64,000 nucleotides of DNA. It comes from Cruoricaptor ignavus. Its GTDB lineage: Bacteria; Bacteroidota; Bacteroidia; Flavobacteriales; Weeksellaceae. Shown piece by piece: positions 3,201 through 33,180 of this stretch. A model generated the notes under the pieces. That model ran no database searches. It was not told the DNA's origin and saw only the letters and a list, made by a program, of their open reading frames with translations. Both the position numbers and the translations under genes were made by a program. Numbering within the stretch: the first letter of the stretch is position 1; the number at the start of each line of letters is the position of its first letter. Location: the NCBI RefSeq assembly GCF_900141665.1, contig NZ_FQYI01000005.1, forward strand, positions 1-64,000. The letters are read 5' to 3'.

Positions 3201-4009
3201 TTATTAGCATCATCGAGCAAAACGATATACTTCTCCCCAGCAGAAAAAGCATTCTTTAAATCTTCCCAAATCGGCGGAGATGATCCTTCAATTACAATCG
3301 GATGATAGCCCTCCTTGCCGAATTCTTCAAGAATTTTCACAGCTAGTCTGGATTTTCCGACACCAGCGCCACCTGTTAACAATAACTTATCGACACTACG
3401 GAGCAAAGCCATAGTTTGATTAAGCTGATCTTCACGGCCAATAAAAGGATTGGTAAGTGACGGTTGAATTGCTTTCTTTGTCTTTTCTAAATAATCAGCC
3501 AAAGGATAAATAGCGCCTATGGTGGAATGAATATTCAAATAGGCAGAAAGCAAGTAAGGATGACTTGCCAGTTTGAAGCTTAATTTCTGAATGCTGTAAA
3601 TTTCAAACTCTGTTAACTTATTGTGTGATGCGACCTTTTCTTTTAGCAGAAAATCTTCCTCCGGTTTTATGATTTCATTACAGGCTAAAATTATTTTATG
3701 AACCTTATTTTTAGGAATTTTGGTTACAGTCTCATTAAAACAATGGTCAATATCAGATAATAATTTATAAATAAAAGACCGAGAATTTCCAACTCTTTCC
3801 TTTGTAGTATATTCTACAAATAGATAACCACTTTTGTATTCAAAAAAGGAGTCTGGCGATCCCTTTTTATTTTTTTCTTTTGCCTCTACCGTTCCCGGAG
3901 CAGAAATAAAATTGTAGCCCTCCAATTGTAACAAGTGGGTTACTAATATTGGAAATTTGGCATCGTTAATGGATTTGAGGGCTTGTTCTATTTTCGGGAT
4001 TAGATTCAT
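236..4009 (-). CDS. STAND-type NTPase with nuclease-like N terminus, probable anti-phage (Avs-like) protein
   Basis: A 1257-residue protein. Residues about 1-170 resemble a PD-(D/E)XK-type domain: S-P-D at 51-53, then E66-Y-T on a predicted strand (LFVEYTT), followed by helices. The linker NPFIGREDQL (about 187-196) starts a STAND/AAA-like ATPase with Walker A GGAGVGKS (213-220) and Walker B YIVLLDDA (261-268). The remaining 850 residues are helix-rich without recognised motifs and would suit a target-sensing repeat region. Known Avs proteins share this plan: N-terminal effector, central NTPase, C-terminal sensor. The gene starts 33 bp after ptuB, so it is probably the last gene of the defence operon. 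It ends a few bases from an IS end, so its native C terminus may have been altered. Function is inferred from architecture and neighbours. Confidence 0.7.
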   Translation of the reverse strand: MNLIPKIEQALKSINDAKFPILVTHLLQLEGYNFISAPGTVEAKEKNKKGSPDSFFEYKSGYLFVEYTTKERVGNSRSFIYKLLSDIDHCFNETVTKIPKNKVHKIILACNEIIKPEEDFLLKEKVASHNKLTEFEIYSIQKLSFKLASHPYLLSAYLNIHSTIGAIYPLADYLEKTKKAIQPSLTNPFIGREDQLNQTMALLRSVDKLLLTGGAGVGKSRLAVKILEEFGKEGYHPIVIEGSSPPIWEDLKNAFSAGEKYIVLLDDANKGMNNFNYLLNTTTEKKSYELKIVVTSRDYVKNIVEGELKNYAFNELNIPVFKDEDIEKIILASLPNLQYYYDIKKAIVAIAKGNARIALMATASVQPGAKNNYLQNPVLLYEEYFEKIATETKILTNPINLQALAIISFFGVLDRQDHKLQELLQSKFSINWNELWSSILELHQKELVDLYSDEVARISDQVLGTYVFYKCFIDRKSAAINYGKWVESFIENYFYKIRNTLVDVNNTFGFSHIKDQIEPHLTYLEQNISGVNERYQFFDIFWLYRQLDCLTFVKDWIDSLEQKTNEVGYSLQYNTNDYQQPGKYLVFLSRFWNQQNDYFESSIQLALDLVSKQPSRFTEVLKFITDCTIYRHTDPYLDYERQLRFYEVFKNLATEQKYKEICNLILLGIGSDFLKWHFNDFESKGMAFTSYTFSLYRTANLELLRGKILSHFAENVNFSELTTNSYLQVITNPRGNFDAQLYLNEIPFYDKIISQLNVNQYSHCKFVVELSDRIIDAKGTPPDDWEVFTHSDVVKLSNFLRPAWAFKIDRTKSLDECEVERKENFRKFVEENNWSNISKFFISASNLNKQQLDRTFWDIDYSITEIFILLARKSMADYLKALHLFFESKIEFVLTSNIVRIPLGESLCAGKDILNIIDANNVNGSDFWVSAVLSYLPQNEINQLMLERLIYVFKTAKGKIYISQMSDFLKYSDQFEKYKVEKIELVSHNIITYLTSLILDKEIINRSNFGWRIFQDYSNYFGDQKDLLTDVYWKIVEVDPGFDFEGKELEAVLRINSKAINDGIKRGKISLGYGSGFERMKLQALWRLENCFEIIEGLIFLIRDSNTYGFVREEEMNALFNVNENSVNLIEKMKFFILQMLRKHAKDNFVVIALLNVVYDKFNDWFFEFFRELLLVNKDTELLKEISFSRTESWSGSRVPIIQSKINFLEKVVATIKTLPNLLDYAAHIKHFEQCIRWKQEEIEQELKRDFIEQASY

Positions 4010-4042
4010 TTTATCAAGTAATAATTTTTTTAAGATATTTTA

Positions 4043-4711
4043 CTATTTCAAACTATTTAATTTTTTATCCAACAAATAAAGCGCAACACCAAAAAATTCT
4101 TTATGTTTATTTTCTGATCGAGAACTCCAAAACTCTATCTCTTTTTTAATAAAGCTTTCTTTTAACCGTTTATTTCCAAGATATTTACATTCATTATGAA
4201 TTCTATCTTTTACATTTTTATACACTTGGCTTCTTGCCTTTTTTAAAGATTGCATATTAAGATTAAGAATTTCGTCAATCTCTAACACAGTTTCCTTACT
4301 TTCCCCTGTAATTGTACCATCTGCTTGATAAGTGATTATAGCACTACATAAGGGTGATGCAGACAAGATATCAATAGTTTGCAAATCTTTATCACCTTTC
4401 TTACTGTCGCAAGTTTGCAACTGACCTCCTTTACCTTGATTGCCAGTACAAGCAGCGAATAGATTTTTATAATCCAAACCTAAATCACTATAATTATTTT
4501 GACATTTAAAATGTTCAATTTTACAGCCTGGTGAAGTTTCTTTTTCGGGAATCCTTTTCATGCAATAGCAACAAACAAATCCCTGTTCTTTCATTAAACT
4601 TTCACGCAATTCCTCTTTTGCATCGGAAGGAATATTGCTATAATTTGAATGTGGTCGTGATCGATGCTCCGCTAGTGATCTTGGTTCCCTGCCTTTATTT
4701 ATTTTCCTCAT
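4043..4711 (-). CDS. ptuB: PtuB-like HNH endonuclease of a Septu system
   Basis: A 222-residue protein of the HNH family found with PtuA. Visible motifs are CCYCMKRI (zinc/HNH cysteines, about 48-55), KIEHFKCQ (the EH of the HNH core), LDYKNLFAACTGN and the later CDSKKGD, in the usual order for PtuB and for the HNH partner of retron-linked PtuA. In Septu the ATPase PtuA and nuclease PtuB form a complex that degrades DNA after infection. The start overlaps the end of ptuA by 17 bp, which indicates translational coupling. No reverse transcriptase is seen nearby, so this is Septu rather than a retron-Septu system. Confidence 0.85.
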   Translation of the reverse strand: MRKINKGREPRSLAEHRSRPHSNYSNIPSDAKEELRESLMKEQGFVCCYCMKRIPEKETSPGCKIEHFKCQNNYSDLGLDYKNLFAACTGNQGKGGQLQTCDSKKGDKDLQTIDILSASPLCSAIITYQADGTITGESKETVLEIDEILNLNMQSLKKARSQVYKNVKDRIHNECKYLGNKRLKESFIKKEIEFWSSRSENKHKEFFGVALYLLDKKLNSLK

Positions 4712-6164
4712 TTAAGTCAGACTCTAAATAATCAATTTGAATTTTTGCATTTATCAATTCAGGGTCATCTGTACCGAGTAATTTAACTAATTCGTCATAT
4801 TTCTTTTTTGAATCATTCAAATTTTCATTTTCAATCAATCCAAATAATTCAGTAAGCATTTTCGTAACCTCGGGTATTCTTTCTTCAACATTCATAAGTT
4901 CATATAGAATGGTACTAATATCTTTTCCATAGTAATTTGGTGTATAGTTTAAAACTTTGGCGTTTTCAACAATTTTCACTTCAGAATATTTGTTATCTGA
5001 ATTACTTAATAATTGAGGTGAATGTGTTGTAATTATAAAATGTGATGTATTATCTTCAGATATATTATTCTTAATGAGTTCTATATATTTCCGTTGCCAA
5101 GAAGGATGAAGATAGGTATCAGGTTCGTCAAATAGGAATAAAGTGTTTTCTCTACCCGATAATTCAATCAAACCTTTCGCAATTATTAATTGTTGTTCAC
5201 CCTCACTTAAATGAATAAATTTAGCGTCATCATTATTTTTAAAAGTAAATGAAAATTCAGGTTGAAAACCATCTATAATTAATGTATTGAGAATTTCAAA
5301 AAATCGTTTTTCTTCAACAAAATACTCACGGATTGAGTAGATCATTTCACCACCTAAAATTGTAATGTTTAACGCAGTATCTTCCCATGCTTCCATCACC
5401 ACATTTCCTGATTTTGAATACTCAACAGGAGCTAAATGTAAAGGTTCCTCCAAACTGTCCAAAAATCTCAATAACAGTTCTACTTCACCTTCTGCACCCC
5501 AAAATTCATTAATTTTTTTCCTTGCCCATTTTGGTTTCCGAAGTTTAATTTTTACGCTTACAACATTTTTAATCTTTGCAATTTTGAGAAGAAAACCAGG
5601 AACATCACCAAATTCATAGGATAATAATGATAATAAAATAGTTCCGAACAATTTTGGTTCGTAGTATAAAAAAGGACGATCTAAATGCTTATCTTCAGAA
5701 CGTAGATTAAATGATAGCTCCTTATTGAAAGGCTCACAAACTCGCTCCATAATATGAGATTGACCAGAATAGTAGATAACAATATTGCTGGGTAAAATTC
5801 GTTCAAAACTACCGTAAATTTCAGCAATCTCTTCCCTTTTTAATTTCCTTCCATTTACAATATATTCTTGGTTAGAATTTTCTTTTTTGTTAAAAATTTC
5901 AACCTTAATATAATCCGTCTTGAAATCAGAAGTCATGGAAGTTTGTTCCAGAATTTCCTCTAACCGCAACTCGTACTCTAACTTAAATTGAAATTTTGTC
6001 TTTTCATTTCGAAATGCATCACTGAATATCTGAGCAATACTTTCTAAAATGGTTGATTTGCCTGAACCATTGATCCCAATAACTATGGAAATATACTTTT
6101 GAAAATCTATTTCAAAATTCTCGAAGATTTTATATTTCTTAATAAATAATTTGGTAATCTGCAT
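4695..6164 (-). CDS. ptuA: PtuA-like ABC/SMC-type ATPase of a Septu system
   Basis: A protein of about 489 residues with an ABC/RecF-like ATPase fold: Walker A INGSGKST near the N terminus, signature LSEGEQQLI, Walker B LFLFDEPDTYLHPSW and the H-loop TTHSPQLL. This split ATPase next to an HNH gene is the hallmark of Septu (PtuAB). An upstream start at 6200 is open, but the ATG at 6164 (MQITKLF) begins one base after the hsdS stop codon and gives the usual N terminus, so I chose it. It sits between hsdS and ptuB with no room for its own promoter, so Septu expression is tied to the restriction-modification genes. Confidence 0.85.
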   Translation of the reverse strand: MQITKLFIKKYKIFENFEIDFQKYISIVIGINGSGKSTILESIAQIFSDAFRNEKTKFQFKLEYELRLEEILEQTSMTSDFKTDYIKVEIFNKKENSNQEYIVNGRKLKREEIAEIYGSFERILPSNIVIYYSGQSHIMERVCEPFNKELSFNLRSEDKHLDRPFLYYEPKLFGTILLSLLSYEFGDVPGFLLKIAKIKNVVSVKIKLRKPKWARKKINEFWGAEGEVELLLRFLDSLEEPLHLAPVEYSKSGNVVMEAWEDTALNITILGGEMIYSIREYFVEEKRFFEILNTLIIDGFQPEFSFTFKNNDDAKFIHLSEGEQQLIIAKGLIELSGRENTLFLFDEPDTYLHPSWQRKYIELIKNNISEDNTSHFIITTHSPQLLSNSDNKYSEVKIVENAKVLNYTPNYYGKDISTILYELMNVEERIPEVTKMLTELFGLIENENLNDSKKKYDELVKLLGTDDPELINAKIQIDYLESDLNEENK

Positions 6165-6165
6165 T

Positions 6166-7515
6166 TTATTGGGTTTTAAATACGGTTTCTTCAAATTCAA
6201 TTTCCGCGTTTTCTTTTAAAGCACTTGCTTCATTCTTCAACATTTCAATTCTGTTTTTCATGTCAGAAATATGATGCGAAATTTCTTTTTGCTTTTCGAG
6301 TGTTGGAACAGGAATTATAAAATCCTCCAAAAATGCCTTAGGAACTCTTTGCTGTCCAGCAGAACCTGTAAAAAACAACGTTGCATACTGTAGAAGCTTT
6401 GGCAATCTAAGAATATGATAAATAAATTCTAAATCTACGCTCTTACTGCTATTTCTTAAAACATGATATTCAGTAGAGCCACAACCAAAACCATTTTTTA
6501 GATTATTGACGATCGCTGATTTTCCATTCTGCATACATGGTGTGATACGAGCCCAGATCAGATCACCGTCCTGAAATTTTGTATATCCTTTTGAATTCAA
6601 TACTGTTTTTTCTCGCAACTCAACCACTTTACCATATTCATCAGAAATACACTCCATTGGGATAAAGGAAATAACAGTATCTTTATCTGGAAGTATTGTT
6701 GTAGGATTTATATCTACGAGATTTTTTAATCTTTCGTTTTTGTACTTATTTGAATGAAAAAATAAATCTTCGCCTTTATTATTATAATCAAACCCCCATT
6801 TTTCAACATTCTTAAAATCTACTAAATGTAAAAGAGAATCATTTTTAATAGAAATTTTATTTTTTTCAATCCCCAATTCCTCAAATAAATATTTTTCTAT
6901 ATCTGCTTCTAAGTTTTGGGCTTTTAGTTGCAATTCTTGGGCATCGTTTATCTTTCTCTCGTAGGCTTCCACAATCTTTTGTTGTTCTGAAAGGGGAGGA
7001 AGAGGAATTAGTAATGAGGAAATAAATTCGTAAGTCGCCTCGTTTTTTATACCCTCAGCTCGTAAAAAAGACAAATGATTTTTAAAGTTTTGACTACGAA
7101 TTGCCATTACTAAATATTTATCATTAACAATATCCCGATTAATATGATAAGGTTGATAGTGTGTAGTACACACTAATTTCCCGATTGTGTTTATTGCTAA
7201 AGCTCCTTGATGAAAATTAATTTTTGAAACTAATAAATCTCCCTTTTCCAAAGCATATAAATCCATATTGGTTTCCAATTCATCCCTCAAGTGAATAACA
7301 CCATCAGCAAAAGAAATTTTTTTTACTACTGGAAAGTCCTTTTTATAATCAATTTTTCTAATTTTATTTTTGATTGGAGATATAACATTTCTTAACTCCA
7401 CCAAACTAAAAGTTGAATCAAAATTATTGGGGTTTATATAATAACTTACAAACCATTTATCAAATTTTGAATAATCTACAAATTTTAGCCAGGAAAAATT
7501 TTGTACTGTTCTCAT
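6166..7515 (-). CDS. hsdS: Type I-like restriction-modification specificity subunit (HsdS)
   Basis: A 449-residue protein with two target-recognition domains, each closed by a conserved coiled-coil entry: IPLPPLSEQQKIV (around residue 170) and IPVPTLEKQKEI (around residue 405). Each domain would recognise one half of a bipartite DNA site and the helices set the spacing. The start codon overlaps the stop of the methylase gene in a TAATG junction. The two recognition domains differ in sequence, so the predicted target is asymmetric. It should work with the upstream methylase-nuclease protein. The recognition site cannot be read from the sequence. Confidence 0.88.
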   Translation of the reverse strand: MRTVQNFSWLKFVDYSKFDKWFVSYYINPNNFDSTFSLVELRNVISPIKNKIRKIDYKKDFPVVKKISFADGVIHLRDELETNMDLYALEKGDLLVSKINFHQGALAINTIGKLVCTTHYQPYHINRDIVNDKYLVMAIRSQNFKNHLSFLRAEGIKNEATYEFISSLLIPLPPLSEQQKIVEAYERKINDAQELQLKAQNLEADIEKYLFEELGIEKNKISIKNDSLLHLVDFKNVEKWGFDYNNKGEDLFFHSNKYKNERLKNLVDINPTTILPDKDTVISFIPMECISDEYGKVVELREKTVLNSKGYTKFQDGDLIWARITPCMQNGKSAIVNNLKNGFGCGSTEYHVLRNSSKSVDLEFIYHILRLPKLLQYATLFFTGSAGQQRVPKAFLEDFIIPVPTLEKQKEISHHISDMKNRIEMLKNEASALKENAEIEFEETVFKTQ

Positions 7516-9776
7516 TAATTATAAAAAATTTCAGGTTCAGAAACTTCACCGCTTTTTTCGGCAATCGGCAATCGATAGATATTGTCTTCTATCACTTCAT
7601 ATTTCACCTCTCTAAACTTGTTTTCCCAAAGGTGGTTTTGTTCACGGTATTTTTTAAACTCCTCCGCCAAAGGTTCCAGTTCATTTTCAATTTTAGCACC
7701 CGTTGTGCTTATACCAGCTTTTTCTACTTCTGCTATAGGAATTTCGTAGTTAAAACCTTCCTTAATTTCTGCTTTTATATCTGCTGAAATTTTCTCCACA
7801 ATTTGTTTTAATTCTGTGCGTAGTTTTTTCTTTTCGTCTGCGGAAACTGCATCTTTTCCTTTCAGGGAAAGTTGGTTATTTATTTCTTCAGTTCTTGTAT
7901 TGTATTTTGCCTTTACTTTTTTTTCAGCCCTTGTTTTTATGTTTTTATATTCTTTGGCTTCTTCTTCTGTAAATTTTTTGAAGAACAGCAAACTCGGCTT
8001 CACCGTTGCACCCGAAGCAATGAATACATCCTGCGGAATGGAAGTAATCAGCACAATTTTCGCCTGACTTTCCACAAAATCCCGGATCTTTTGCAAATTG
8101 GTATTGTTCAGTACGCCTTCCGGCAAAACAATTCCCATTCTTCCTCCGGGTTTTAGCAAATTCAAGCAACGCTCAATAAAAAGGACTTCCGTCAAAGTAC
8201 TCATAGCTCCAGTTTTATAGAGACTGATTAAAGATTTACCGATGTTGTTATTCACCTGTTTCAGCGCTTCATCATAGGCTTTGCCGTAGCGTTCTCTATA
8301 TTTTAAAATTCTTGCGGTGTCGGTATATTTATCAGCTTCGGTTATTTTTAAAGATTTTTCTACTCTTGCCCCAAAAGGTGGATTGGTAAGGATAATATCA
8401 AACCTGTTTTCAAAAATTCCGTTCACATTCAGCAAACCGTCGTTATGATGAACGCCACCGTGACCGTCACCGTGCATAATCATATTCATTTTCGCAGTCC
8501 GGCTCATTCTCGGGTTGGCATCCGTCCCGAAAATACAGTCGTAACTCAAAACGCGCAACCTGCTTTTTTCGTTGTTAATATCCAGTTCTGCATTTAGTTT
8601 TGTAAACAAATCGTTTACCGTTTCATCAACTTTAGCTTTATCAGATTCCGACATTTTTTCATATTCAGCAGTATAAAATTGAGTTTTAATTTTTTCTTTT
8701 TGCTCCTGAATTTCTTCCTCAATTTTCGCACGGACAAATTCAAATGCTTTAATCAAGAAACCACCACTGCCGCAGCATGGGTCGCAAATCACTTCGCCTT
8801 CCTGCGGATCCAATACATCCACCATAAAATCTACCACAGTTCTTGGCGTAAAGAATTGACCAAGTTCGCCCCTAAAAGTTCTTCCTAAAAATTGCTCAAA
8901 AGCAATCCCTTTTACATCATCAGAAGTAGTGGAAAGGTTATAAATTTCAAGTTCCTTTACGATAGCTTCAAAACTGTTTTCACGAATTCTAATGATCTCA
9001 CTTTCTTCAAATAAATCATCATCCTTAAAATCCTTTTTGGTTAGTTCAAATAGTTTCTGATAAAAAGGACTGTCCGATTCTGCACGATATAAATCATCGT
9101 ATTTTTTTGCTTTTTTGAATTCCTCCAAAGAAAAAATCTGCCCTTCTGAATTTGATCTTTCATATCTGATTTTTATAAATAAAATCTTGCTGATCTCATC
9201 AAAAGCTGCCTCCGGTGAAAGTTTATCATTATTTCTAATGATGTTATGACATTTGAAAAGCAGTTTTGAAAATTCATCTCTAGTAAAAGCTTTTGTTTGC
9301 TTCAACAGGGCATTGATTTTCTTATCATCCTTGATTTCATCTGCAGTAGGAATATTGACAATCTCCTCTAATGATTTTGGAATATGTCCTTTTACAACTT
9401 TAAAAATTCGAGTTTCTTTTTGATTGGTGGTTACAAAAAAGTCGGCTCCAGCCCAGGAAGCATAATTATATCCCTGGAAATAATCTTCCTCGTGAATTGT
9501 GATATGTTCTGCCTTGCATTCAACAACAATTACTGGGCTTTTACGCTCAAGTTTATCTTTTTCATTCTTGAAAATGGCAATATCAGCCATTGCTCTTCCT
9601 TGGCCTCTTTGGGAATTATTCACCTTAATTTCCTGCTCCATCTGATTGAGCTCATACCCATATGATTTTACGAGTCGAGCGATATATTCCTGCCGAACTT
9701 TTTCTTCGGGTTTCAGAACTAACCATTTATCTTTTAAAGGGGCAAATATTTTATTATCCTTAATTTGTATTTCCAT
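7515..9776 (-). CDS. N6-adenine methyltransferase with fused N-terminal nuclease domain
   Basis: A 753-residue protein. Residues about 25-115 form an HSDR_N-like PD-(D/E)XK domain: D65 in ADIAIF and E86-C-K88 in VVVECKAE-like context. A helical HsdM N-terminal region follows (about 170-300), then the methylase domain with motif I DPCCGSGGF (332-340) and the catalytic motif NPPF (465-468), which defines an N6-adenine MTase. The C terminus is charged and helical. No helicase-type HsdR gene is visible in the operon, so cleavage probably depends on the fused nuclease. This resembles BcgI-like (type IIB) enzymes, where one chain cuts and methylates and a second chain gives specificity. Two bases separate it from the upstream regulator. 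Confidence 0.85.
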   Translation of the reverse strand: MEIQIKDNKIFAPLKDKWLVLKPEEKVRQEYIARLVKSYGYELNQMEQEIKVNNSQRGQGRAMADIAIFKNEKDKLERKSPVIVVECKAEHITIHEEDYFQGYNYASWAGADFFVTTNQKETRIFKVVKGHIPKSLEEIVNIPTADEIKDDKKINALLKQTKAFTRDEFSKLLFKCHNIIRNNDKLSPEAAFDEISKILFIKIRYERSNSEGQIFSLEEFKKAKKYDDLYRAESDSPFYQKLFELTKKDFKDDDLFEESEIIRIRENSFEAIVKELEIYNLSTTSDDVKGIAFEQFLGRTFRGELGQFFTPRTVVDFMVDVLDPQEGEVICDPCCGSGGFLIKAFEFVRAKIEEEIQEQKEKIKTQFYTAEYEKMSESDKAKVDETVNDLFTKLNAELDINNEKSRLRVLSYDCIFGTDANPRMSRTAKMNMIMHGDGHGGVHHNDGLLNVNGIFENRFDIILTNPPFGARVEKSLKITEADKYTDTARILKYRERYGKAYDEALKQVNNNIGKSLISLYKTGAMSTLTEVLFIERCLNLLKPGGRMGIVLPEGVLNNTNLQKIRDFVESQAKIVLITSIPQDVFIASGATVKPSLLFFKKFTEEEAKEYKNIKTRAEKKVKAKYNTRTEEINNQLSLKGKDAVSADEKKKLRTELKQIVEKISADIKAEIKEGFNYEIPIAEVEKAGISTTGAKIENELEPLAEEFKKYREQNHLWENKFREVKYEVIEDNIYRLPIAEKSGEVSEPEIFYN

Positions 9777-9778
9777 AG

Positions 9779-9976
9779 TTATTTTGTCGAGTTCAACAAA
9801 TCTTTTATATCTATATCAAGAAGTTTCGCAATTTCAAGTAAAGTTTCCGTGGACGGTTGAATTTCGTTTGTTACCCAACGCGAAACTGTAACCTCACTTT
9901 TGCCAAGTTGCTCAGCCAGCCATTTATTTGTTTTTGACTTTTCTGCAAGAATAACTTTTAATCTATTGATTTTCAT
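9779..9976 (-). CDS. XRE-family helix-turn-helix regulator of the defence operon
   Basis: A 65-residue protein that is almost entirely one HTH_3 domain. The recognition region reads WLAEQLGKSEVTVSRWV, followed by PSTETLLEIAKLLDID. Small XRE proteins encoded just upstream of restriction-modification genes often act like C-proteins that time nuclease expression. It is the first gene of the operon and its stop lies 2 bp before the methylase start, so it is probably co-transcribed and autoregulatory. The operator is likely in the AT-rich 50 bases upstream (9977-10050), but I could not fix a specific site. Confidence 0.85.
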   Translation of the reverse strand: MKINRLKVILAEKSKTNKWLAEQLGKSEVTVSRWVTNEIQPSTETLLEIAKLLDIDIKDLLNSTK

Positions 9977-10274
9977 TATTTGTTATTTGATTAACATTTA
10001 GCGATAAATATACACACTATTTCTAAAATTTCATACTTTTGCTATACTAAAATAAAAACGCAAAGCGTAGTCTATCGTTGGGTAACTGAAAACCGCGAAT
10101 TTTCAAAAAAAACATCCATCTTCGATAGACTTACGCCTGTGCCATATAGGCGTGGGCTGTAAGTCAAATCCTGGATGTTTGGTTCTTCGCGGTACCACAG
10201 TTACAGATTGGCTTCAGTTCCACGCTTTGTTATTTAATAAATGCATTTTGGAACGGATGCAAAAAAATAACACT
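9977..10274. other. Intergenic region between defence operon and unknown accessory gene
   Basis: About 300 bases without a convincing gene. The left 60 bases are AT-rich and should contain the defence operon promoter on the minus strand. The rest is dominated by the multi-stem inverted-repeat locus listed separately. The open frame from 10152 runs through that structure, but its N terminus is not protein-like and the signal peptide begins only at 10275, so I treat the region as non-coding. Confidence 0.6.
10061..10229. repeat. Multi-stem nested inverted-repeat locus with a crossing pairing
   Basis: Nested complementary arms seen directly: CAAAGCGT 10061-10068 with ACGCTTTG 10222-10229; GTAACTG 10082-10088 with CAGTTAC 10198-10204; ACCGCGAA 10092-10099 with TTCGCGGT 10186-10193; AAACATCCA 10110-10118 with TGGATGTTT 10172-10180; GACTTAC 10128-10134 with GTAAGTC 10159-10165, closed by GCCT/AGGC. 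A further pair, TCTATCG 10071-10077 with CGATAGA 10123-10129, crosses the nested set and shares bases with the innermost stem, so two alternative folds are possible. Candidates are a structured RNA, a folded single-strand recombination site (integron attC-like) or a protein-binding cruciform. The arms are seen; the role is unknown. Confidence 0.75.
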
Positions 10275-10826
10275 ATGAAAAGATTTAGTCTATTAGTCGT
10301 GATTGCCATTTCCACAGTCACATTCGCTCAGAAAATTGACTGCTCAAAAATCAAAGATGAGCTAACAAATGTTAAAACTGAAATTGCAGAACTTACCAAG
10401 CAAAACCTCTACTACAAAGAAACACTCGATTTGCTTAAACCACTTGCATCAAATTCCGCCAATAATCTTGATATTAGCATTATCAGCGCTGTCGGAAATA
10501 AGGAGGGCAAAACGATCACAATTTCCTATCTTTATCAAAATACTGCGACAGAAGCTAGGAAGTACTTTCAGGCATCACAATCATATTTTGTCGATGCACG
10601 TGGAAATCAATCCGAAACCTATGAGGTATATGCATCTGCCAATAGATTGCGAGTTGAGCAAATACAACCCAACATCCCAATGAAAGGATTTATCAAATTC
10701 AAGGTTGAAGAAGTTGATTTTCCAATCATCAAACATCTTAATTTAAAGTTTAGCTATGTTGGGAATCAAATAGGAAAACCCGAGGAAAATGTTATTTTTC
10801 AAAATATTCCTGTTACTTGGAAATAA
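10275..10826 (+). CDS. Secreted protein of unknown function
   Basis: About 183 residues from the ATG at 10275. It begins MKRFSLLVVIAISTVTFAQ, a standard Sec signal peptide with cleavage after the AQ. A short coiled segment follows (about 25-50), then a beta-rich region with ISIISAVGNKEGKTITISY and LKFSYVGNQIG, suggestive of an immunoglobulin-like or FxLYD-like fold. I do not recognise the family. It stands immediately downstream of the inverted-repeat locus and 21 bp before another unknown gene in the same direction, between the defence operon and the mobility genes, so it is accessory cargo. Confidence 0.6.
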   Translation: MKRFSLLVVIAISTVTFAQKIDCSKIKDELTNVKTEIAELTKQNLYYKETLDLLKPLASNSANNLDISIISAVGNKEGKTITISYLYQNTATEARKYFQASQSYFVDARGNQSETYEVYASANRLRVEQIQPNIPMKGFIKFKVEEVDFPIIKHLNLKFSYVGNQIGKPEENVIFQNIPVTWK

Positions 10827-11253: not shown

Positions 11254-12492
11254 TTATCTTCTTATTTTTTTATGATTATGCTCTTCATTTCTTGAATTAC
11301 TAATCCTCAAACTATCCTTATATTTCTCTTCCAGCCATTTTTGACTTTGAGTACCTTCAATTTTTAAAATCTTGTTTTTTTCCGTAGTGTCATATTCAAT
11401 ACTCAATTTAAGACTTTCAACCTTGAAACTTTTAAAGTATCGTGAAGAATAGATTTCACCGCTTATATGGATTTCTTGCTTTTCTAACAACTTTTTAATC
11501 AGTTCCGGCGGCAACCTCATTTTTTCACATTCGGTAACAATAGGAAGAGAATCTTTGACTTCAGGGTGATATTTCAATACTTTGTCAAAAACCTTATTCT
11601 GCTTTTCTAATGTATTTTCAAGTTTTGAAACTGAATCCTGCATCTTTCCTTTTTCTCTGTCATTATCAATCCTAAGAATGTTTATTTCTTTTTTCATTTG
11701 TTCATTTTCCTTTTCCAATTTCTTAGTTTTAGAACCCGTTATAGCATTCGCAAAATTTTCAATTATTCTTTTTGAAGAAATATTCTTCTCAATGGCTTTC
11801 AATTCAGATTGCTTTTGATTCTTTTCCTTTTCCAACTGTTGATTTTGGAGATGAAGGTCTCGGTAATATTCAGATGTGGAAATATGTTTGGCTTCCGAAC
11901 CCTCTATCCCTCTTCTTAATCCATATTTTGCCATTGCTGCAGCATAGGTATTCTGATAGTGCTTCAGCTTATTTCTTGCCATTACATCATCGGCACAAAG
12001 CCTGTTGGCATTTGAATTTTTCTTTTTATATGTATGAGGATTATTGTCTTTTTTTGCTTTTCTTCTTTCTCCTGTGACTATTGGAATTATAGTAGCGTGA
12101 ATATGAGGTGTTTTTTCATCCATATGCAATACCGCGGAAACCAAATTCTCTTCTCCGAAAGTTTCTTTAATCCAATCGAGATTATCTTTACACCAATTGT
12201 CTAATTGTTTGTTTTTCTCGATGGCTTTCATCGTTTCATGAGTTCCGGACAACATTATGCGAATGGCTCTCACCTGATTGATTCCTATCTTTCTTTTGAG
12301 ATTGGCATTGTCCAACCTGTATTGTATTGCCGAAGTCCTGTTTTTGATTCCTTCAGGATAGGCAATCATTTCTTTATTGAGATGAGTTAGTGAAGCATCT
12401 GCGTTTTTCGGATGGATGGTTCTTTCTATATGGGCTGACATTCCGGAATCATTACCTTTGGCTTTTTCTAAATGTAGAACGGTATATGACAT
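11254..12492 (-). CDS. MobV-type relaxase (Mob_Pre family)
   Basis: A 412-residue protein. The N-terminal half carries the relaxase domain, with the metal-binding histidine motif HMDEKTPHIHATIIPI at about 123-138 and an N terminus (MSYTVLHLEKAKG) typical of Bacteroidota Mob_Pre proteins. The C-terminal half is a long lysine/glutamate-rich coiled coil (about 215-300). Such relaxases nick oriT and lead the strand into a recipient with help from a conjugative element supplied in trans. No type IV secretion genes are seen, so the element would be mobilizable and not self-transmissible. A candidate oriT is directly upstream. Confidence 0.9.
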   Translation of the reverse strand: MSYTVLHLEKAKGNDSGMSAHIERTIHPKNADASLTHLNKEMIAYPEGIKNRTSAIQYRLDNANLKRKIGINQVRAIRIMLSGTHETMKAIEKNKQLDNWCKDNLDWIKETFGEENLVSAVLHMDEKTPHIHATIIPIVTGERRKAKKDNNPHTYKKKNSNANRLCADDVMARNKLKHYQNTYAAAMAKYGLRRGIEGSEAKHISTSEYYRDLHLQNQQLEKEKNQKQSELKAIEKNISSKRIIENFANAITGSKTKKLEKENEQMKKEINILRIDNDREKGKMQDSVSKLENTLEKQNKVFDKVLKYHPEVKDSLPIVTECEKMRLPPELIKKLLEKQEIHISGEIYSSRYFKSFKVESLKLSIEYDTTEKNKILKIEGTQSQKWLEEKYKDSLRISNSRNEEHNHKKIRR

Positions 12493-12529
12493 TGCTTTTT
12501 AATTTAATTTTTAAACAATTCGGGGGTTT

Positions 12530-12611
12530 CCAAAGGGGGAGTATCCCCCTTGGCTTATTGGGGCTTTTTTAGTGAAGTGCAACGGAGCGTTAAGAAAAAG
12601 CCCTAATAAGC
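12530..12611. other. Candidate oriT of the mobilizable element
   Basis: Two inverted repeats lie directly upstream of the relaxase gene. The first is CCAAAGGGGG/CCCCCTTGG around AGTAT (12530-12553). The second has 18-base arms, GCTTATTGGGGCTTTTTT (12553-12570) and AAAAAGCCCTAATAAGCT (12594-12611), with one mismatch and small offsets, around a 23-base loop rich in GC steps. MobV oriT sites are usually found in this position with such repeats. The second repeat could also act as a terminator for the primase transcript. The nick site is not identified. Confidence 0.5.
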
Positions 12612-12647
12612 TATGGCTTTTCTTTTCAAAAGCCTTCCGTGCAGCCC

Positions 12648-13601
12648 TCACCTTTTTCTCCTGTAGGTATTGGCTTGTTCAGGAATTCTACTCTCATCAA
12701 CATCATTAGCCAAATTATTGTTAAGGATATTTTTGCTTTTGAGATAATCGTTCAGGTCTTTGTGGTCGGAATAGGTTACTGAAAAATCTTTTGCTTCCGG
12801 AAATTCTTTCAATAATTTCGAAGTAGCTTTTTGTCCGGCAGCATCATTGTCAAGTATCAGGCTTGGTGTAAGTTTATTTTCCCTTATCCATTCTATGGCT
12901 TTATTCAAATTCGAAAGGGAATTCAGAATGATACAATCTACTTTAAACTGTTTTTCATTCTTCAAAGTGAGATGAGACAGAAAATCAAACATCCCTTCGT
13001 AGACCATGCATATTGTATTTTCCTGATTGCAGCCACTTCCGTCAACCACAGAAATATTCTGCGAAGTGCAGCCTTTGAAAAATTCGGAACGAAGATGATA
13101 GCTCCCATTATTATCGAGCCATCCCAATGCCTTATATTTCCTGTCATCTACAGAATAATGAATCTCCTGTAGATATTTCCGAGCAGTATCAATATTGATG
13201 TTGCGCTCCTTTAAATAGTGCAACAATTTTGAATCGTGAAGAGATTGTATCTTTTCAATTTTAATGCTGGATTCTCTTGTGTTATTTTGATTTCCTATTT
13301 TCTCTCTCATGTTATTGAAAACAAAATCGGTGTTCAGATTTAAGCCTTTCAGGAAAGTAAGTGCCTCAGAAACATTTATTGCTTTTTGCATGGCAATAAT
13401 AAGGTCTATGATGGTTCCACCTTGGGCAGAGCCATGGTCGTACCATAGATTCAGTTTGTCATCAACTTTCATCGATGCCGTTTTTTCCGTTCTAAATGGA
13501 GAATAGTAAAAATAGTTGTATCGAATAGTTCTTTGCGGTTCATGCCCTAAAGCATTAAGAAAATCAATGATTCTGATATTTTTTGCTGTTTTTGTATTCA
13601 T
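12648..13601 (-). CDS. Mobile-element primase with toprim domain
   Basis: A 317-residue protein. The N terminus (about 1-100) resembles a CHC2-type primase domain without clear zinc cysteines: FRTEKTASMKVDDKLNLWYDHG, shown here in part, matches the fold's DNA-binding segment. The C-terminal toprim domain shows VYEGMFDFL (catalytic glutamate) and LILDNDAAGQKA (the DxD-like acidic motif), then DLNDYL. Such primases serve replication of Bacteroidota mobilizable elements and plasmids and may prime the transferred strand. It lies between the candidate oriT and the palindrome, in line with a replication role. Confidence 0.8.
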   Translation of the reverse strand: MNTKTAKNIRIIDFLNALGHEPQRTIRYNYFYYSPFRTEKTASMKVDDKLNLWYDHGSAQGGTIIDLIIAMQKAINVSEALTFLKGLNLNTDFVFNNMREKIGNQNNTRESSIKIEKIQSLHDSKLLHYLKERNINIDTARKYLQEIHYSVDDRKYKALGWLDNNGSYHLRSEFFKGCTSQNISVVDGSGCNQENTICMVYEGMFDFLSHLTLKNEKQFKVDCIILNSLSNLNKAIEWIRENKLTPSLILDNDAAGQKATSKLLKEFPEAKDFSVTYSDHKDLNDYLKSKNILNNNLANDVDESRIPEQANTYRRKR

Positions 13602-13693
13602 GTATTTTGGATTTATTGGGTATTTTTTTCTTTCACCAGCAATCTTGCTATTGAAAAGAAAAAATCAGTATTGGATTATTGGGATTCGATGAC

Positions 13694-13741
13694 TGGTTTA
13701 GTCTGGTTTACTACTATATAGTAGTAAACCAGACTAAACCA
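13694..13741. repeat. Perfect 48-bp palindrome
   Basis: A gap-free palindrome centred between 13717 and 13718 (TACTACTAT|ATAGTAGTA). Each arm is 24 bases and contains two tandem 10-mers, TGGTTTAGTC and TGGTTTACTA, so the whole site is four related half-sites. It lies in the only gap between the primase and the RepA-like ATPase. It may be a replication origin, an operator or a single-strand initiation hairpin. It lacks a T-run, so it is not a standard terminator. Confidence 0.9.
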
Positions 13742-13766
13742 AATAGCCCATTGAATGATTTTGGAA

Positions 13767-14804
13767 TTAATAGTAGAAGCTGGGGTTGAATTTGTAAAAT
13801 CTCCCCTCCTTAAAAATCATCGTTTTGTTTTGACAAAAGACCTTCAGTTTTTTAGCCTTATTGGTTCCGAAATCATATCCGAAATGAGCATAGGATTCTA
13901 TCAATTTTGAGATAAGCTCTCCATAGGAAAGTGATTTTTGGTCTTTGAAAGCGAGTGATAGTGCTTCCCGATGGTTTTGCTCTGAAATTTCGTGATAATC
14001 AAATCCCTTGGCTTGACCTGTCTGTATATGATAGTCATCCACAGGCTCAGGTAAACCATCGTCATCAATCCTGAAGGCAAAAGGTTCAAACTCAACATCA
14101 CGAATACTCATCGGTTTTACAATAGAGATATTCGGGTCTTTTTCATCTCTTACCACTTGTAGTATAGTTTCGGCTTTATTCAGTAGTTCAGTTCCCAAAT
14201 GTCCCCGTGCATTATCATCCGTTTTATTCACATGCAAAACAGTGTGAATATGCAACTGATAGACTTCTGTCCAGATCATCAGTTTAGAAATAATCTCGGT
14301 AGATTCATTCGGGGAATTGATATCGAATACCAAATCTCTGATTCCGTCAATAATGACCAACCCCAATGAAGTGGTGCTTTTAATTGCTTCTTCGATAATC
14401 TGTATACGGATAGAAGGATTGAATCTTCTCAGACAGACGAATTCAAGATTCTCGGGTTGAATCTCCTTGCTCATTCCCGATAGTTCAATTATCCTTGACA
14501 AGACTTTCTGACTGTGATACGGACTTTGTTCGGTATCGAAGTAAATGATTTTCCTCTTATCATCCGGCATAGCCGCATTATAATTGAGCATTAATCGACA
14601 GACCAGAGCAGCTGCGGTCATCGCTGTAACACTAAAGGTCTTTCTGCTTTTGGCTTTTCCAACGGTAGCGGAAAAATTACCCAATGTTCCCACAACAGAT
14701 TCATCAATACGGATGACCACAGGCGGATATTCAAATTTGTCGGTAATCAAAAGCCTTGACGAATGCCATAGACTCTTAATGTCTTTGTTGTTATCCATCA
14801 TCAT
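13767..14804 (-). CDS. RepA-like RecA-fold ATPase of a mobile element (AAA_25 type)
   Basis: A 345-residue protein with a RecA-like core: Walker A variant GKAKSRKTF (about 42-50, R in place of the last glycine), IIYFDTEQSP (about 89-98), Walker B LVIIDGIRDL and VLHVNKTDDNARGHLG resembling motif 3/4 of RepA and KaiC-like helicases. The C terminus is small and helical. Proteins like this are found as RepA/helicase homologues in Bacteroidota integrative elements and probably help replicate the excised circle. Its start overlaps the stop of the DUF3853-like gene by 4 bp (translational coupling). Confidence 0.78.
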   Translation of the reverse strand: MMMDNNKDIKSLWHSSRLLITDKFEYPPVVIRIDESVVGTLGNFSATVGKAKSRKTFSVTAMTAAALVCRLMLNYNAAMPDDKRKIIYFDTEQSPYHSQKVLSRIIELSGMSKEIQPENLEFVCLRRFNPSIRIQIIEEAIKSTTSLGLVIIDGIRDLVFDINSPNESTEIISKLMIWTEVYQLHIHTVLHVNKTDDNARGHLGTELLNKAETILQVVRDEKDPNISIVKPMSIRDVEFEPFAFRIDDDGLPEPVDDYHIQTGQAKGFDYHEISEQNHREALSLAFKDQKSLSYGELISKLIESYAHFGYDFGTNKAKKLKVFCQNKTMIFKEGRFYKFNPSFYY

Positions 14805-15103
14805 TTTCTTCCTCCGATTTTACGTCCTGCCAATTCTAATGCAAGGTCTGCATCCACGATGATTTTACGACCTATCTGCGTGATGGCTTTATCTATTTTT
14901 CCACTCTGCTTGATGCGGTTGGCTGTAGGAATGCTGCACCCGAAAAGGCGTGCGATTCCGGAAATTCCGTAAACGTGTTTTTTTATGGAATTATTGAGAG
15001 GAACTGGTGCATCTTCTTTATGCCCATCGGTCTTCTGAAGATAGAGAAATTCTTCGCCTGTCATCTGCCAAAGCGGTTTCTGCTTAAGTTCGTTTAAGTT
15101 CAT
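14801..15103 (-). CDS. DUF3853-like HTH protein of the mobile element
   Basis: About 100 residues from the ATG at 15103 (MNLNELKQKPLWQMTGEEF). The C-terminal half reads YGISGIARLFGCSIPTANRIK, then GKIDKAITQIGRKIIVD, an excisionase/MerR-like winged helix-turn-helix. I recognise it as DUF3853, a family common in Bacteroidota integrated elements. It may regulate the replication genes or assist excision. An upstream start at 15163 is open but adds an uncharacteristic, poorly structured 20 residues. It is the first gene of the RepA unit. Confidence 0.75.
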   Translation of the reverse strand: MNLNELKQKPLWQMTGEEFLYLQKTDGHKEDAPVPLNNSIKKHVYGISGIARLFGCSIPTANRIKQSGKIDKAITQIGRKIIVDADLALELAGRKIGGRK

Positions 15104-15279
15104 ATTTTTTACAATGTTATGGTTAAACAAGCCTTGTACTTCGGCGTTATTGTTCGAACACATTGCAAATCTAGGATGGGAAAAGAGTGGTAAGGTGGTG
15201 GATTTATGAAATTTATATCATTGATAATCAATGAGTATTAAATATATTTTAAGTGGTAAAAGTGGTTGCTTATGGGATA
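15104..15279. promoter_or_regulatory. Regulatory gap with dyad and direct repeats
   Basis: The gap upstream of the DUF3853-like gene contains a dyad TCATTGAT-A-ATCAATGA (about 15218-15234) and two related direct repeats, AGTGGTAAGGTGGTGG (from about 15187) and AGTGGTAAAAGTGGTTG (from about 15252). These look like operator or iteron sites. No binding protein can be assigned. Confidence 0.4.
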
Positions 15280-16323
15280 TCAGGAAATAGTATTGAATAT
15301 TGACTCAATAACGTCTTTAAATTCTTTATTTTTCTTATTGCCTTCTTCAGAACTTACCGCTACGGTTTTATATTTGGAATTATAAGTCTCCCATTTAATT
15401 CCTAATTGATTGAGTAGGGCTGTTCTCCATTCTTTATTTTCATCAGACTGAAGACAATCATATAGTTTTGAAATTAAATGATAGGTTCGCTCTTTTTCAC
15501 GATTCCTAATGATCAGCTTAGCATTTGATGGTCGCAGATTGAGAATGTTATAAAAATCTATAACACCCAAATTCTCGAATTGCATTCCATTACATTCTTT
15601 ATGAATGGATGATATTAATTGCATATCAAAATATTCTCCATGTTTTAGTTCGGAATTTTCCTCGGAATTTGGTCTTATTTCATCAAAAAAATAATTATTT
15701 AAGACCAAAAGAAAAGAACTTTCCAATTCGCAGATCTTTCCAAAAACATTATCGGCAAACTTTAGGGATTCTTGACGCAATTTTTCTTTCTCCCGATAAA
15801 GTTCATCAAGTTTTCCTGGTTCGATCTTATATAAATTGGAAAATTTGTTTACTTTTTCTTCAAACGCCCTAACTCTCACTTCATCACCTTTCCAACTTGC
15901 CGATTCCAAAGAATTTTTTGCATCCCTTAATTCTATATACTGATTATTGGTATATTTTTCTTGAGCTTTTATTTTGGAGTCGAAGGAATTGGCTCTATCC
16001 CAGCAAATTTCAAATGTATCTATATTATCTAAAGAATTTATATGGTCATTATACTTTTCGATATTCTTTTTTATCACTTTCCGCAATATCGAAAAAAACT
16101 GTACTTGTTTTTCCTTGTCTTTGGAAGTGATGAAATTTAAAACTGCTTTTTCAAAATTTTCAAGATTTCTGAATTGATTGAAAAAAGCAACAATTTGCTG
16201 TTGTTCTTCAAAATGCAATATTTTGTTTTTCAGTATGTTTTGATATATTTCGTCTAATTTTGTGTATTTCGGCAATATATCCATAATTTGATATAGAGAA
16301 CCATGAGTTTTATTTTCTTCCAT
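15280..16323 (-). CDS. Mobile-element protein of unknown function, coiled coil
   Basis: A 347-residue, highly charged and helical protein with no signal peptide or membrane segment. The centre (about 105-200) is a likely coiled coil. The C-terminal part holds LNLRPSNAKLIIRNREKERT followed by HLISKLYDCL, a block that I associate with hypothetical proteins next to integrases in Bacteroidota elements and that loosely recalls the RteC C terminus. It ends close to the regulatory gap and starts 8 bp from the integrase gene, with which it is probably co-transcribed. Function is unknown; regulation of excision is one possibility. Confidence 0.6.
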   Translation of the reverse strand: MEENKTHGSLYQIMDILPKYTKLDEIYQNILKNKILHFEEQQQIVAFFNQFRNLENFEKAVLNFITSKDKEKQVQFFSILRKVIKKNIEKYNDHINSLDNIDTFEICWDRANSFDSKIKAQEKYTNNQYIELRDAKNSLESASWKGDEVRVRAFEEKVNKFSNLYKIEPGKLDELYREKEKLRQESLKFADNVFGKICELESSFLLVLNNYFFDEIRPNSEENSELKHGEYFDMQLISSIHKECNGMQFENLGVIDFYNILNLRPSNAKLIIRNREKERTYHLISKLYDCLQSDENKEWRTALLNQLGIKWETYNSKYKTVAVSSEEGNKKNKEFKDVIESIFNTIS

Positions 16324-16331
16324 TTGTCAAA

Positions 16332-17621
16332 TTATAATTGATTGAATTTGTCCATTGCACTGGCTTTGATTTCGTCAGCAATATCAATATAGGGTTTCAT
16401 CGCCTTATAATCACTGTGTCCCGTCCATTTCATGACAACCTGCGCAGGAATACCAAATGAAAGGGCATTACAAATAAATGTCCGCCTTCCTGCATGAGTT
16501 CCCAAAAGAGCATACTTTGGTGTCACTTCATCGATTCGCTTATTTCCTTTATAGTAGACCTCCCGTACAGGCTCGTCAATTTCCGCCAATTCCGCCAGTT
16601 CTTTCAAATAATCGTTCATCTTCTGATTGGTGATGACCGGAAGAACTTTATCATACTCAAAATGAACTTCTTTATACTTGTCCAGTATTGCTTTGCTGTG
16701 GTTGTTTAACTCGATAATTAAACTGTCCGCAGTTTTTACAGTGGTAATTTCGATATGGTTGTCTTTTACATCACTGCGCCTCAAATTGAATACATCTGAA
16801 TATCTAAGCCCTGTAAAACACTGGAACAAAAAAACATCACGAACTCTCTCTAAGTATTTTTTTGTTTCCGGAATTTTGTATTCTCTCAATTTCGTCAATT
16901 CTGCCCAGGTCAAAAATATAACCTTCTTTTGAGTGGTCTTTAATTTTGGTTTAAATAATTCAAAGGCAAAATTGGAGGTGTATCCTTTCTTTTTGCTCCA
17001 GCGAAGAAACCATTTTAGAAATCCTATCTGCTTACTGATGGTACTATTTCGAAAGCTCTTCTTGTCACGGAGATAGTTTACAAATTCAGTGAGTTTGTTC
17101 TCGTCCCATGATTCGAAAGTCAAATTTTTATCAAAATCTTCCAAATGCTTTTTCGTGGTGGCAAATTTTTCATAGGTTGCTTCTGTCCAATTGTTATGAA
17201 CTCCGCATTCTCGTACAAATTCATCAAATTTACCCATGAACGAAAGTATTGAGGATTCTAATTCAAGACTATTAGGCAAATCCTTATTTTGCCGATTATT
17301 GAATGCTGCTTTAAGTTGTTCAGGAGTAGGAATGATTTCGTTTACTTCACATTCTTTGAAAATATCCTGTATATCCGAATAATATTTTAAAAGATCTGAA
17401 TTGATTTCGGCTGCGGTCTGCTTAAGTTTATTGGTACAGCCATTTTTTACACGCTGCTTGTCTTTATCCCATTTGGAAAAATCGATACGGTAGCCTGTGG
17501 TAAATTCTATCCTTTTATTATAGTAAATAACACGCATACGGATAGGTACATTTTCAATCACAGGAAGACCGTCTTTCTTTCTTCTTTCAAGCGCAAAAAC
17601 TATATTTCGTTTGATATTCAT
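16332..17621 (-). CDS. Tyrosine recombinase (Bacteroidota-type integrase)
   Basis: About 429 residues from the ATG at 17621 (MNIKRNIVFALERRKKDG). It has an arm-binding N terminus (about 1-90), a SAM-like core-binding domain (about 130-220) and a catalytic domain. The catalytic residues are visible: R in FTGLRYSDV, H and R in HAGRRTF, H in KWTGHSDYKAM and the nucleophile Y in KPYIDI. It integrates or excises the element by cutting and rejoining at att sites. The longer frame from 17678 runs into repeats and was not used. A tRNA-Ser remnant 160 bp beyond its start fits a tRNA-directed integrase. Confidence 0.92.
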   Translation of the reverse strand: MNIKRNIVFALERRKKDGLPVIENVPIRMRVIYYNKRIEFTTGYRIDFSKWDKDKQRVKNGCTNKLKQTAAEINSDLLKYYSDIQDIFKECEVNEIIPTPEQLKAAFNNRQNKDLPNSLELESSILSFMGKFDEFVRECGVHNNWTEATYEKFATTKKHLEDFDKNLTFESWDENKLTEFVNYLRDKKSFRNSTISKQIGFLKWFLRWSKKKGYTSNFAFELFKPKLKTTQKKVIFLTWAELTKLREYKIPETKKYLERVRDVFLFQCFTGLRYSDVFNLRRSDVKDNHIEITTVKTADSLIIELNNHSKAILDKYKEVHFEYDKVLPVITNQKMNDYLKELAELAEIDEPVREVYYKGNKRIDEVTPKYALLGTHAGRRTFICNALSFGIPAQVVMKWTGHSDYKAMKPYIDIADEIKASAMDKFNQL

Positions 17622-17779
17622 GGGTGTATAACATATTAATCGACACCCAAATTTACACCCAATTATTGAGATATACAAAGATTTTTTATGATACTCAACT
17701 ATAACAGCAAATTCGTATTATACCTGATTATCAATATTTTGATATTCTATAATCATCTAATAGGGTTCAGGAGAAAGAG

Positions 17780-27899: not shown

Positions 27900-27979
27900 T
27901 ACCCAGGACCGGGATCGAACCGGTACTCCGAAGAACTGGTGTTTGAGACCAGCGCGTCTACCAATTCCGCCACCTGGGC
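27900..27979 (-). tRNA. tRNA-Leu (anticodon CAA)
   Basis: On the minus strand: acceptor GCCCAGG pairs with CCTGGGT, D-arm region with GGTAGACGC, anticodon stem CTGGT/ACCAG around CTCAAAC (anticodon CAA), a variable arm TTCTTCGGAGTA and T-arm CCGG-TTCGATC-CCGG. Discriminator base A. The CCA is not encoded. Boundaries may shift by one base. Confidence 0.95.
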
Positions 27980-32844: not shown

Positions 32845-32873
32845 TTGTAATTCAAAAATAATTTTTAATTTCG
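32845..32873 (+). promoter_or_regulatory. Promoter of rpsO
   Basis: TTG (32845-32847) and TAATTTCG (32866-32873) with 18 bases between match the Bacteroidota -33/-7 pattern, except C for T at the seventh position. The rpsO ATG follows 37 bases later. Confidence 0.6.
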
Positions 32874-32910
32874 CGGCTTGTTACATAATAATCATTAAAA
32901 TAATATTGGC

Positions 32911-33180
32911 ATGTACTTAGCACCTGAAAAAAAGGCGGAAATTTTCGCAAAACACGGAAAATCTGAAAAAGATACCGGCAGCGCAGAAGGACAGATTGCG
33001 CTGTTCACCTACAGAATCAATCACCTATCTCAGCACCTGAAATCGAACCAAAAGGATTTCGTGACGGAGCGCTCGCTGGTGGCATTGGTAGGTAAGAGAA
33101 AAAGGCTTCTGGATTATCTGAAGAAAAAGGATATCGAGCGATACAGGGCCATCATCGCAGAATTGGGCTTAAGAAAGTAA
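32911..33180 (+). CDS. rpsO: 30S ribosomal protein S15
   Basis: An 89-residue protein of normal S15 length. Motifs: DTGSAEGQIALFTYRINHLS, HLKSNQKDFVTERSLVALVG and KRKRLLDYLKKKD. It binds 16S rRNA in the central domain and joins the platform of the small subunit. A terminator follows directly. In many bacteria pnp comes next; here a toxin-antitoxin pair is between them. Confidence 0.98.
   Translation: MYLAPEKKAEIFAKHGKSEKDTGSAEGQIALFTYRINHLSQHLKSNQKDFVTERSLVALVGKRKRLLDYLKKKDIERYRAIIAELGLRK

Follow-up and report, generated by a model that had tools for sequence, protein, structure and literature searches.

A candidate bistable leader RNA preceding many unrelated genes in the Bacteroidota

The window investigated here, a stretch of 64,000 nucleotides from Cruoricaptor ignavus, contains between positions 10061 and 10229 a set of inverted repeats that are nested within one another and in part cross. 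The initial annotation, prepared without database searches, likened them to an attC-type recombination site, a cruciform, or an RNA with a switchable fold. Which of these, if any, is the element, and what might it do? The evidence presented below favors the RNA: the element probably forms the 5' end of the message of the gene that follows, as its leader, and, to judge from its sequence and those of its relatives, would be a cis-acting, bistable structured RNA whose two competing folds probably provide an on/off switch for that gene. The attC-like site and the cruciform, in contrast, did not stand.

As had been proposed, the element lies outside of any gene, between a defence operon (the HTH gene at 9779-9976 on the minus strand together with a type I restriction operon) and cargo, namely a gene for an unknown secreted protein that starts at 10275 on the plus strand. 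The features of this neighborhood are as follows.

9779..9976, minus strand: divergent Cro/CI-type HTH gene (HTH_26, E 1.6e-11), outside the RNA itself
10034..10041, plus strand: promoter box TAnnTTTG (-7) of the Bacteroidota type, TACTTTTG, a sequence motif
10058..10233, plus strand: whole structured RNA element as modelled (match to covariance model R1, 161.6 bits)
10275..10826, plus strand: downstream gene, presumed to be regulated; 183 aa with a signal peptide, a long helix and an Ig-like beta sandwich

The predicted transcript start of the window copy is at ~10046. All of the nested and crossing arms reported between 10061 and 10229 are indeed present. They are listed here together with the segments, designated A, A', B and B', that are referred to throughout.

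10061-10068 with 10222-10229: outermost nested pair (A:B'), 8 bp
10082-10088 (5' strand) with 10198-10204 (3' strand), plus strand: helix P2, 7 bp
10092-10099 (5' strand) with 10186-10193 (3' strand), plus strand: helix P3, 8 bp
10110-10118 (5' strand) with 10172-10180 (3' strand), plus strand: helix P4, 9 bp
10128-10143 with 10149-10165: innermost nested stem
10069-10077 with 10123-10131: crossing pair, 9 bp and perfect, competing with the innermost stem
10065-10077 with 10123-10136: crossing pair as extended (A:A'), 13 bp with one bulge
10065..10077, plus strand: segment A (1), partner A' (10123-10136)
10123..10136, plus strand: segment A' (2), partner A or, alternatively, B
10149..10163, plus strand: segment B (3), partner A' (helix P5, loop AUAUA) or B' (10212-10226)
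10212..10226, plus strand: segment B' (4), partner B, directly before the U-rich tail
10228..10272, plus strand: 3' hairpin P6, a predicted fold directly 5' of the start codon
10228-10235 with 10265-10272 and 10242-10248 with 10255-10261: helices of P6
10249-10254: loop of P6, UGGAAC, complementary to the GUUCC of B' (10217-10221)

The crossing pair, given at first as 7 bp, does exist and does compete with the innermost stem; it is, however, longer (9-13 bp) and better conserved than had been supposed. A second crossing pair, 10149-10163 with 10212-10226 (B:B'), had been overlooked. P3 is flanked by GAAAAC and GGUACC, which form a conserved internal loop.

The plus strand of 10058-10233 folds with an energy of -65 kcal/mol. 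For the 169 nt from 10061 to 10229 the value is -62.8 kcal/mol as compared to -38.2 ± 4.2 kcal/mol for dinucleotide shuffles (z -5.85). Not one of the 200 shuffles folded as well as the native sequence.

The search for further copies showing covariation, which the initial annotation had suggested, yielded many homologues. In BLASTN searches of whole genomes, 90 of the 320 genomes from the same family were seen to contain relatives, 70-83% identical, and from 33 of these relatives the covariance model R1 was constructed. R1 detects the element in 226 of the 316 family genomes, as many as seven copies occurring in each, and in 34 of 395 genomes drawn from across the Bacteroidota. A second covariance model, R2, built from distant copies only, finds matches in 58 of the same 395 genomes. 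R2 also recovers the window element (45 bits, E 6e-7), which provides independent confirmation that these sequences constitute one family. Genera identified in a pattern scan and checked with the model include Chryseobacterium, Epilithonimonas, Cloacibacterium, Faecalibacter, Flavobacterium, Muricauda, Algoriphagus, Belliella, Pedobacter, Mucilaginibacter, Dysgonomonas, Parabacteroides and Prevotella, among others. None of the pattern matches outside of the Bacteroidota fits the covariance model, and these were employed as negative controls. One weak BLAST match, L009, was dropped given that it sits inside a mutL-like coding sequence. A second, diverged copy occurs in the genome from which the window derives (L212, G000 contig C15:198648-198816; R2 E 4e-4). 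It displays a TATATTTG promoter, the competing helices and a U-run, has a lipoprotein gene behind it, and suggests that the family is broader than R1 and R2 reach.

When the window copy was compared with the 4227 models of Rfam 15, nothing was found at the gathering threshold or up to an E-value of 5. The elements of ten relatives likewise gave nothing at the gathering threshold, and copy L083 showed sub-threshold noise only. The sole Rfam matches within the window are an S15-Flavobacteria ribosomal leader (32866-32913, plus strand) and a tRNA gene (27900-27979, minus strand). The element is not named in the main text of the RNA-discovery and transcriptome literature searched; it may nonetheless figure in supplementary lists, or among the conserved small RNAs of F. 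psychrophilum such as Rfp11. We file it as a family that is new and absent from Rfam but belongs to an established type, the structured leader RNAs. Other Bacteroidota motifs such as Flavo-1, Bacteroid-trp and Bacteroidales-1 were likewise found by comparison as structured RNAs in this phylum (Weinberg 2010, PMC2864571), but those of them contained in Rfam match neither the element nor its relatives.

The homologues display compensatory changes in helices that are mutually exclusive. Two-sided changes are observed in five of the six pairs of P2, in four of the six pairs of P3, and in all five tested pairs of P4, for which 79% of the cells are paired. In A:A', 98.8% of the cells are paired and three pairs show two-sided changes. 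In B:B', all tested cells (100%) are paired, again with two-sided changes, and for the apical stem A':B the paired share is 97.8%. Shuffled and slid controls fall far below these values. An additional test compared the pairing energy of a segment with its own partner to that with partners taken from other sequences; note that these tests are partly inflated in that shared ancestry of subfamilies may contribute. A:A' (p 7e-6, 5e-4 and 6e-7) and B:B' (p 1e-8, 1e-4 and 0.0035) are significant in close and distant copies, and A':B is so in distant copies (p 4e-4 and 0.0016). A:B' displays no preference for its own partner (p 0.92, 0.92 and 0.66) and was accordingly rejected as a conserved helix. 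The outermost nested pair, which had been counted as part of the element, is thus present in the window without evolutionary support, and it served as a negative control.

The comparative data delineate a chain like that of an attenuator, in which A' is predicted to pair with either A or B, and B' with either B or a loop preceding the start codon. The pseudoknot-capable and highly conserved internal loops might call to mind a self-cleaving ribozyme or a processing element in the 5' UTR. No ribozyme family of Rfam 15 matches, however, and the covariation favors alternative folds over one rigid fold, such that a function of this type is very improbable.

The helices also bear on whether the element works as RNA or as DNA. 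On the plus strand the named helices contain 124 G.U cells versus 6 A.C cells (p 9e-30), from which it follows that the plus strand copy is selected as a single strand and that the element works as RNA and not as double-stranded DNA. This strand-specific bias argues against a cruciform. Taken alone it would also be compatible with a recombination site folding from the plus strand, but the genomic arrangement, tallied over 125 distinct copies, speaks against that. The long imperfect hairpin and a single GTTGGGT heptamer in the window copy are features that an attC site would have, yet the core sites RYYYAAC and GTTRRRY are not conserved, and the heptamer is replaced in homologues. The initial annotation had proposed to test whether homologues lie at the ends of other cargo genes, as expected for a cassette site; attC sites are located 3' of cassette ORFs, in arrays, and have no promoter to themselves. 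The homologues are instead situated 5' of genes and behind a promoter, and no arrays of element-gene units occur among the loci read. In addition, the integrase encoded in the window contains Arm-DNA-bind_5 and SAM_5 domains, which are typical of integrases of mobile elements. An attC-like site or a cruciform is, as a consequence, scarcely credible.

Nearly as hard to sustain is the idea of a MITE-like palindromic DNA element scattered by a transposase. Several copies are indeed present per genome, often in the vicinity of integrases, Tn genes and restriction systems. A MITE would be expected to leave near-identical copies in a genome, yet those found together are only 65-83% identical, as diverged as copies from different genomes, and thus give no indication of a cassette or of recent transposition. 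The fixed order of promoter, element and gene and the strand-specific wobble bias likewise run counter to this highly improbable explanation. BLASTN searches of plasmids with the window copy gave no match. With other copies two plasmids were matched, both of them mobilizable, and no phage records, and of four pattern matches in viral contigs three fit the model. The notion of a mainly viral or phage element was rejected on the basis of these few viral-contig matches and the lack of phage records by BLASTN.

The -7 promoter element of Bacteroidota has the consensus TTTG/TANNTTTG (PMC6847099). Of 121 copies, 65 contain a TAnnTTTG box between -30 and -10 (background 1.8%), and no copy has one on the opposite strand there. 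At the 3' boundary, 111 of the 125 copies show at least four T in a row after B', as compared to a background of 26.5%. In 115 of 123 cases the gene that comes next shares the strand of the element (p 2e-25). When the box was compared with the gap between element and gene, it was present upstream of the element in 67 of 109 copies, and no second box was seen between element and gene in 52 of 52 copies with a short gap and in 48 of 57 with a long one. The gene is seldom provided with a promoter box of its own and thus appears to depend on the promoter of the leader. The distance from the element to the AUG shows a peak at 40-50 nt (23 of 109 copies) and a second, broad group at 200-500 nt. The complementarity of B' to its own downstream sequence exceeds that to foreign downstream sequence at 82 of 115 loci (p 9e-9), and the complementary site frequently falls in the loop of a hairpin that immediately precedes the AUG.

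A different reading of this arrangement is that of a stand-alone small RNA of ~180 nt, which would be transcribed from its own promoter, end at the U-run, and act in trans on mRNAs or a protein, the gene behind it being simply a neighbor or reached by read-through. The promoter and the U-run do bracket a discrete unit, several copies occur per genome, and in many of them, including those of the TonB type, the AUG is 200-500 nt away. Such a small RNA is unlikely, though, in light of the same-strand gene that follows nearly every copy, seldom with a promoter of its own, and of the peak at 40-50 nt and the pairing between B' and the loop that precedes the AUG. The DonS-type RNAs of Bacteroides are cis-antisense RNAs of susC genes, 78-128 nt in length (PMC7366714). 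They act, as the element would, as RNAs that control SusC/TonB-type genes of this phylum from the 5' end; unlike them, the element is sense to its gene, and no reverse promoter box was present in the -30..-10 window of any copy.

As a 5' leader, the element contains A, A', B, B' and the U-run in an order that, with the pairings 1:2, 2:3 and 3:4, corresponds to the logic of an attenuator. Folding of successive prefixes, as in a growing RNA, shows A:A' forming first and then being displaced by A':B once B emerges. The two-hairpin state has an energy of approximately -49 kcal/mol plus -8.5 kcal/mol for the 3' hairpin, as opposed to -71 kcal/mol for the rod state with that hairpin. The rod is thereby favored by ~13 kcal/mol in minimum free energy folding, and given this gap, switching and the B:B' state must rely on kinetic trapping, a ligand or a protein. 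During transcription, A:A' would form first and leave B free for B', and the resulting B:B' stem followed by the U-run might cause RNA polymerase to stop. In those copies with a hairpin before the AUG, the start region could alternatively be hidden or exposed. Were A' to invade B, the long P2-P5 rod would arise and B' would be released, making it available to the downstream loop, and expression of the gene would follow. A ligand, a protein or a trans-acting RNA favoring one of the two states would set the level of expression. We infer from the sequences an effect of this type on expression of the downstream gene, with the termination step and the signal sensed as parts of it. In the window copy, B:B' as a putative terminator stem has a predicted energy of -17.5 kcal/mol with a 48-nt loop; in place of the run of at least four U that most copies possess, it is followed only by UUUGUUAUUU.

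The element shares with trp-type and riboswitch-type attenuators the four segments in competing pairings, the U-run after the last of them, and the position between promoter and gene. It differs in that its two hairpin loops are joined by further long helices, P2-P4, in that the genes behind it are unrelated to one another, and in that there is no conserved leader peptide. Indeed, a short ORF starting with ATG is present in only 8 of 118 leaders, and on this basis a leader-peptide attenuator was rejected.

The same leader is attached to many unrelated genes, which are often mobile or encode surface-exposed proteins. They include genes for secreted proteins, TonB receptors, RibD-like reductases and ECF sigma factors. 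Among 104 downstream proteins, 14 contain a TonB plug domain and five a RibD_C domain; a few carry redoxin/thioredoxin or ECF sigma domains, one or two have a TM2 or bacterial PH domain, and many proteins belong to no family at all. The genes are too diverse to provide a hint as to a ligand. The protein encoded at 10275..10826 has no informative family; relatives of it are encoded behind copies L003, L014, L015, L021, L030 and L031. It was folded for a functional clue, and none was gained: the AlphaFold model (pLDDT 80, built without Met 1) matches only generic beta-sandwich structures.

The ops/JUMPstart and EAR elements are generic elements that precede unrelated, horizontally exchanged operons. 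The JUMPstart/ops-RfaH, LoaP and EAR/put systems thus resemble the present family in having one conserved leader before many unrelated, exchangeable surface or secretion operons. The element, however, has no sequence match in Rfam, which includes JUMPstart; it is larger, contains covarying alternative helices, and was found here only in Bacteroidota. It might be imagined that it acts on RNA polymerase, in the manner of the put RNA of phage HK022 or of EAR, to permit read-through of terminators in long foreign operons. Both its generic position and its conserved internal loops beyond the helices are consistent with this, but a U-run that comes immediately behind the final stem, together with the conservation of the strand-exchange chain, points to local control, and some downstream units are single short genes. 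Antitermination of this kind is accordingly quite doubtful.

To our knowledge, few cis-regulatory RNAs have been described in the Bacteroidota, a phylum that lacks Shine-Dalgarno signals and employs an unusual sigma factor. A leader that is widespread in the phylum, lacks an Rfam entry, is backed by strong covariation and occurs in multiple copies before genes for TonB receptors, secreted proteins and island cargo, would demonstrate a shared layer of control for exchangeable genes. It is conceivable, and we offer it only tentatively, that the bistable leader is a hitherto undescribed, phylum-wide RNA switch in which an exchange among four to five strands, governed by one common cellular signal, controls horizontally exchanged surface, secreted and defence-linked genes as a Bacteroidota RNA counterpart of RfaH-ops. 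Sequences, controls and point mutations are at hand with which a ligand, a protein that binds the RNA, or a mechanism of antitermination might be sought.

The genes upstream differ between subfamilies. In the distant subfamily the neighbor is nearly always a small divergent HTH/XRE gene, with 26 of the 38 scanned matching HTH_3. These genes, which are diverse in sequence, are positioned ~100-140 nt upstream of nearly every distant-subfamily copy (L079-L094, L105-L170). The close subfamily is preceded by phage-type integrases (7 of 46), HsdM (5 of 46) and Eco57I-type methylases (4 of 46), which indicates that the leader often travels in islands.

Several individual copies deserve mention. L006 is truncated, with its 3' half replaced, and lies beside a vsr-type endonuclease gene with no gene close behind. 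L017, which has no same-strand gene downstream, is flanked by an HsdM gene on one side and by the 3' end of a mnmE-like gene on the other, and it apparently lies where an island ends. L018 is located between tniB and tniQ of a Tn7/Tn5053-like transposon. The palindrome TACGACAnnnTnTGTCG occurs shortly downstream of the element in L011, L038, L039 and L060 and, with changes, in L016, L023, L029 and L036. It is situated between the element and the next gene, which in several cases encodes a beta-propeller-like secreted protein.

In the window itself, the defence island on the minus strand extends from 236 to 9976. It encodes an nSTAND3 NTPase (236-4009), a Septu-type pair formed by a PtuB-like HNH protein (4043-4711) and a PtuA-like ATPase (4695-6200), a type I specificity protein (6166-7515), a methylase (7515-9776), and the HTH protein (9779-9976). 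The type I methylase begins with an HSDR_N_2 domain at the N-terminus, and the ORFs listed for 1-22000 include no separate gene for HsdR that we could see. On the other side of the RNA, the region from 11254 to 17678 (minus strand) contains genes for a Mob_Pre relaxase, a primase-like protein, an ATPase and a tyrosine integrase, and it is probably an integrative mobilizable element that adjoins the RNA.
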